Source: Halobellus inordinatus (GTDB taxonomy: Archaea; Halobacteriota; Halobacteria; Halobacteriales; Haloferacaceae). From it: a DNA stretch of 64,000 nt. This document shows positions 19,939 to 26,477 of the stretch, piece by piece. A model generated the notes under the pieces. It worked only from the letters and a program-made list of their open reading frames with translations, did not search any database and had not been told where the DNA came from. Location of the stretch: NCBI RefSeq assembly GCF_024464655.1, contig NZ_JANHAV010000002.1, positions 62,001 to 126,000 on the forward strand. Reading direction: 5' to 3'. The position numbers and the translations under genes are program-made. The first letter of the stretch is position 1. Every line of letters begins with the position of its first letter.

Positions 19939-20024
19939 CTATAGTAGCGTTTGCAACTGATTGCTCATCAGATCGCACGCAGTCGTGCGATCGAGTGAGT
20001 AAAGACTTGCAAACGCTACTATAG
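19939..20024. repeat. 86-bp nested palindromic element, family A copy 1
   Basis: The ends are a perfect 18-bp inverted repeat: ctatagtagcgtttgcaa at the left and its complement at the right. In the centre is a second perfect 9-bp stem, gatcgcacg-CAGT-cgtgcgatc. The connecting arms are only partly complementary. A diverged copy in opposite orientation lies at 26395-26477. The element sits between the promoters of two divergent genes (RNA ligase and its partner). It has no coding capacity. It could be a non-autonomous mobile element (MITE-like) or a structured regulatory or nucleoid site. Confidence 0.85.
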
Positions 20025-26394: not shown

Positions 26395-26477
26395 CTATAG
26401 TAGCACTTGCAAGTCTTCACGCATCGGATCGTCCGCTGTCGTGCGATCGGATGAGCAATCAGCAAATGCTACTATAG
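26395..26477. repeat. 83-bp nested palindromic element, family A copy 2
   Basis: Inverted relative to copy 1. Terminal arms ctatagtagcacttgc and gcaaatgctactatag pair with one mismatch; the inner hairpin around GATCGTCCG/CGTGCGATC has two mismatches. Read on the opposite strand it aligns with 19939-20024 along its full length, with one 3-nt gap and scattered substitutions. It fills nearly the whole 89-bp space between two convergent genes, starting 2 nt after the sulfatase-fold stop and ending 4 nt before the panE stop. In this position it could also work as a bidirectional terminator. Confidence 0.85.

Follow-up and report, generated by a model that had tools for sequence, protein, structure and literature searches.

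MITEs of the IS630/Tc1-mariner group occur in prokaryotes and eukaryotes, and are short, non-coding elements with inverted repeats, a TA duplication and a high copy number. An intact mobilising transposon in the same genome supports such an assignment, yet it is not strictly part of the definition and may be lost after the MITE has spread. The SMRs of Haloquadratum walsbyi are 80–110 bp repeats with prominent inverted repeats, are present in many copies and are nested with other repeats; both a target duplication and a related transposon were reported to be lacking (PMC3119063). The PATEs of Haloquadratum are palindromic, transposase-free and multicopy, have no terminal inverted repeats and have relatives of the IS605 type (PMC3119063).

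The window analysed here, 64,000 nucleotides of the Halobellus inordinatus genome (contig NZ_JANHAV010000002.1), contains two copies of a nested palindrome. These belong to a MITE family for which an ISNpe3/ISNma7-type IS630 transposase acting in trans is the most likely mover, a reading to which a probability of about 0.78 is given. The element is short and non-coding (84 bp), has 17–18 bp terminal inverted repeats, is dispersed in about 60 copies and is associated with a TA duplication. A description of the family was sought in the literature and none was found within the limited open-access coverage.

The two copies and their family

Copy 1 (19939–20024) and copy 2 (26395–26477) are in opposite orientation and 6.4 kb apart. 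An earlier note had described them as a pair of nested palindromes, and the coordinates, orientation, spacing, arms and inner 9 bp stem were all recovered. The two copies are real, but they are not just a pair, since the family occupies about 60 places genome-wide. A repeat search at copy 1 returned 41 nt arms (19939–19979 and 19984–20024) that are 83% complementary around a 4 nt loop. The outer C and G of this 86 bp copy (C19939 and G20024) are the preferred target bases of a C-TA-G site and lie outside the element proper, which measures 84 bp with the two terminal TA dinucleotides counted and 80 bp without them, is quasi-palindromic and non-coding, and extends from 19940 to 20023 on the + strand.

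The terminal inverted repeats of copy 1 are 17 bp long (left, 19940–19956, + strand; right, 20007–20023, − strand), or 18 bp when the flanking C and G are included. The TA at 19940–19941 is the left half of a putative target duplication, with its partner at 20022–20023; the duplication itself is seen at two other copies, L021 and L026. The left joining segment (19957–19967, + strand), CTGATTGCTCA, has TTGCTCA at positions 22–28, as in the 3' end of the ISNpe3-type IS630, and the right joining segment (19996–20006, − strand), with the reverse complement GTCTTTACTCA, has the sub-terminal motif TTTACTCA, which is like the 5' end of the same transposon. Between them is the inner hairpin (19971–19992), GATCGCACG-CAGT-CGTGCGATC, which is specific to the MITE and has a 9 bp stem.

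Copy 1 is flanked on the left by an RNA ligase gene (TIGR01209; 18751–19881, − strand) and on the right by the RNA ligase partner protein gene (TIGR03875; 20064–20756, + strand). The start codon of the partner gene matches that of congeners and is about 40 bp from copy 1. A promoter-like TTTAGG is present about 25 bp before this start codon, with copy 1 just upstream of it, and the corresponding place in congeners has a T-rich box. Copy 2 (element proper 26396–26476, − strand) has a 3 bp deletion in one arm. It occupies the gap between two convergent genes: a sulfatase-family gene has its stop codon 3 bp before the copy, and a 2-dehydropantoate 2-reductase gene ends 5 bp away on the other side. 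Both copies are ordinary intergenic insertions.

Genome copies were gathered by search and by place. With a covariance model and a threshold of E ≤ 1e-5, the element was located at 61 separate places of the genome, two of which are in the window, and there were 77 BLAST matches with both strands counted. The majority of full copies run from TATAG to CTATA and measure exactly 84 bp. An identical element is present elsewhere in the genome for 7 out of 35 copies; identical copies thus occupy different sites, which indicates recent spread. The suspicion that the element is dispersed was borne out beyond this genome too, where the MITE is present in 11 of the 16 congeners searched and matches were found in 23 out of 99 related genomes (E ≤ 0.001), patchily by genus. 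It is also carried on plasmids of Halobellus, Haloferax mediterranei, Halorubrum and others. In H. mediterranei, a host accessible to experiment, plasmid pHME505 (NZ_CP039140.1) matches at 29 places when both strands are counted. At L072 (G000:C18:176863-177012) a copy has a second right end and a repetition of its flank (GATTCTCACG) after it, which amounts to a partial tandem duplication. A search of a phage collection gave no match, and an IMG/VR scan with the 17 bp end gave 22 matches, mostly AT-rich and none with the element interior, which were read as chance.

Insertion sites and target preference

At L021 and L026 the element, family A, sits inside another palindromic repeat family, family B, and the insertion in both cases is at the same TA. 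When the element and one TA are removed, L021 aligns without gaps to family B copies over 78 bp (91%) and L026 over 87 bp (93%). The target is therefore TA, which is duplicated. A target preference is also evident outside the TA, where C is present at 107 of 148 MITE ends (72%; background 0.31). Considered by side, C precedes the element at 54 of 74 copies, G follows it at 53 of 74 and both are present at 38 of 74, C-TA-G being preferred.

The site of copy 1 is empty in three congeners, in which the RNA ligase and partner genes on either side are conserved at about 79–80% DNA identity. The intergenic DNA of these congeners is too diverged for an exact junction, so the exact junctions come from the nested repeats. 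The earlier note had left a MITE-like element and a cruciform-forming site as alternatives, and it is the former that is upheld by the many copies, the TA duplication, the C-TA-G targets, the empty orthologous site and the presence of a candidate parent transposon. A chromosomal cruciform or a protein-binding site serving DNA structure might be expected from a near-perfect palindrome in many copies. Its patchy presence across genera, its mobility with TA duplication and its occurrence on plasmids speak against this, and such a role is very hard to credit.

Other repeats are found in and beside the family A copies. Family B is palindromic, about 80 bp long (TAGGGATTATCG...CGATAGTCCCTA), and is itself inserted into family A copies at L073, L074 and L086 (G000:C16:311 kb, C16:442 kb and C1:42.6 kb), apparently with 3 bp TNA duplications (TCA, TGA). 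The family A copy at L076 (G000:C18:112782-113398) is broken by a sequence of about 130 bp bounded by GAGTGAT/ATCACTC, and several copies are adjoined by another repeat that contains GGCACCCCGTGGGTGCC or a variant of it, as in the flanks of L015, L083 and L005.

Fold, arm covariation and gene context

The predicted RNA folds are strong, at −53.4 kcal/mol for copy 1 (z = −10.3) and −33.2 kcal/mol for copy 2 (z = −4.6), with none of 200 shuffles as good. Across 63 copies and 36 pairs, 88.8% of cells show the pair formed. Changes on both sides of a pair were seen in 68 cells, against 27.8 in shuffles and 10–27 in slid controls, although kinship of the copies inflates such counts. The arms change jointly, for example from G10-C75 to A10-U75 in 13 copies, and this recurs in other genera.

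Template switching between the arms of a quasi-palindrome can keep them matched. Matched arms can stem from this process, from subfamily descent or from a single protein that recognises both ends. Arm covariation does not require selection on a fold or cruciform; such selection is not proven by it, because template switching or end recognition by one protein can keep the arms matched. Perfect arms had been taken earlier as a possible sign of selection. The arms are indeed the most conserved part of the element, with a mean identity to the consensus of 0.94–0.96, and they covary, but selection on a cruciform is not needed to account for this. The accompanying view of the joining segments as drifted sequence was not supported, as their identity (0.86–0.88) is not the lowest, the inner stem being at 0.79–0.88 and the loop at 0.71. 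The left segment is not the same as the right, and a TTRCTCA-like motif is found in them at the offset that it has in IS630 ends; the segments are better read as sub-terminal transposon-like sites.

Gene context was determined for 49 copies with a simple codon-based gene finder. Of these, 26 are between co-directional genes, 10 are convergent, 8 are divergent, 3 are in predicted ORFs and 2 are at edges, while the gene spacers of the window are divided 34/11/11 between the co-directional, convergent and divergent types. The 44 copies that are intergenic with both neighbours found have proportions like those of ordinary spacers. The observation that neither a pure terminator nor a pure promoter element suits both positions in the window is reinforced by this spread over contexts. 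A regulatory role deduced from context was rejected, there being no context preference among the 49 copies, and this indifference speaks against a role as terminator, promoter or riboregulator.

A structured element useful to the host, whether a terminator, promoter element or RNA hairpin, and kept by selection on its fold, would suit the strong fold, the excess of two-sided pair changes over shuffles, and the positions of copy 1 just upstream of the promoter-like TTTAGG and of copy 2 in the narrow space between convergent genes. It is highly improbable given the different contexts of these two copies, the spacer-like distribution of the 49, the empty orthologous site in congeners and the Rfam search, in which the element matched no family at threshold (best 24.8 bits versus 70), so that a known structured RNA was also dismissed. 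Caution is warranted against taking such hairpins as regulatory.

Candidate mobilising transposon and comparison with known elements

Of 17 genomes of the genus, 11 contain IS630 elements (PF13358). One group of these is about 1,059 bp from TA to TA, has its transposase in two overlapping frames and ends in TATAGTAG. About 22 bp from its ends stands TTGCTCAC/TTACTCA, the TTRCTCA-like motif of positions 22–28. The names ISNpe3 and ISNma7 are taken from the annotation of plasmid relatives, and NCBIfam assigns the group to IS630. The MITE ends match the ISNpe3-type ends at 0.89–0.94 over positions 1–8 and 0.57–0.77 over positions 22–28, above column shuffles, and the frequency-weighted match over positions 9–30 also exceeds column shuffles (p 0.0004–0.003). 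The correspondence of the left and right MITE ends to the 3' and 5' ends of the transposon is statistically non-specific. The transposon shows TA duplication as the MITE does, and its target preference is equal, with C outside the TA at 35 of 48 ends (73%; background 0.31). In other IS630 groups of the genus no comparable ends were found, and these groups do not share this set of features with the MITE.

No autonomous element with exact TATAGTAGCRTTTGC ends was found in a search for a parent; the matches to this end are MITE variants, a sibling MITE of another genus and an unrelated conserved site. An IS630 gene beside a CRISPR-like array (G000:C1:103.6-104.6 kb) was rejected as parent as its ends do not match. 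This gene is of another group and directly follows the long array of regularly spaced repeats (L214, G000:C1:98.4-103.5 kb), which appear in translation as FRRTPCGVEA / VSDGPLVGSK. The sibling MITE of another genus is 108–111 bp (L216, L224, L227, L229 and L267; G017 and G044) and has the ends TATAGTAGCGTTTGCAA in common with the present family but not the interior; in this family of about 111 bp the IS630-like sub-terminal sequence is found again. At L222, L225 and L226 (G002, G012 and G006) a common site, GTATTATAGTAGCGTTTGCAG, is present but the MITE interior is not, and the upstream sequences of two species resemble each other; the site is either an old insertion remnant or a conserved one.

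Mobilisation in trans is put forward as probable rather than established, since positions 9–17 of the MITE (CGTTTGCAA) differ from IS630 ends (e.g. TCGTTAGAA) and several copy-rich genomes are without an intact IS630 of this type. In the present genome an intact ISNpe3-type IS630 was sought and only a 3' remnant was found; the copy-rich G004 and G006 have neither a PF13358 match nor an IS end of the ISNpe3 type. These same differences could point to another transposase or enzyme as the mover, as has been proposed for the SMRs, which are 80–110 bp with inverted repeats and whose mobilisation is unexplained (PMC3119063). The TATAGTAG end, sub-terminal motif, TA duplication and C-TA-G preference shared with the ISNpe3-type IS630 count against this, as does the description of SMRs without target duplication and with ends unrelated to transposons, and another mover is considered unlikely. 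More doubtful still is the idea that the element has no IS630 of its own to depend on and spreads by means of a transposase, either of the host or an unrelated one, that recognises the folded palindrome. If true, such recognition would also account for the SMRs and for those genomes with many copies but no IS630.

The preferred reading, mobilisation by the ISNpe3/ISNma7-type transposase, can be set out as follows. The 80 bp non-coding, quasi-palindromic element inserts at TA, preferably C-TA-G, and duplicates the TA. The transposase would recognise the outer TATAGTAG and the sub-terminal TTRCTCA at both MITE ends and so move the MITE in trans. The copies of this genome probably spread at a time when it still had an intact transposon, which would since have been lost, leaving the 3' remnant; loss after spread appears the simplest account of copy-rich genomes without IS630. 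End recognition, together with template switching between the arms, may keep these complementary.

This is a new haloarchaeal family of a kind of element already known, probably mobilised by the ISNpe3-type IS630 transposase. That transposon is alike in its terminal TATAGTAG, its TTRCTCA-like motif at positions 22–28, its TA duplication and its C-TA-G preference, and differs in being 1,059 bp with a two-frame transposase, in positions 9–17 and in having no inner GATCGCACG hairpin. With IS630/Tc1-mariner MITEs the element shares short length, lack of coding sequence, inverted repeats, TA duplication and high copy number, whereas the sequence family, the long, near-complete palindrome and the haloarchaeal host range are its own. 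PATEs are likewise palindromic, transposase-free and multicopy, but they have no terminal inverted repeats, and the presence of these in the MITE rules out assignment to the PATEs. SMRs are similar in size, inverted repeats, copy number and nesting; the TA duplication and IS630-like ends of the MITE set it apart, so that it does not conform to a definition of SMRs as lacking a target duplication and having ends with no kinship to known transposons. Haloarchaeal short mobile palindromes thereby gain a target duplication and a candidate transposase, which were reported missing for the comparable SMRs of Haloquadratum. As a TA duplication is easily missed beside an end starting with TAG, the SMRs may deserve re-examination.
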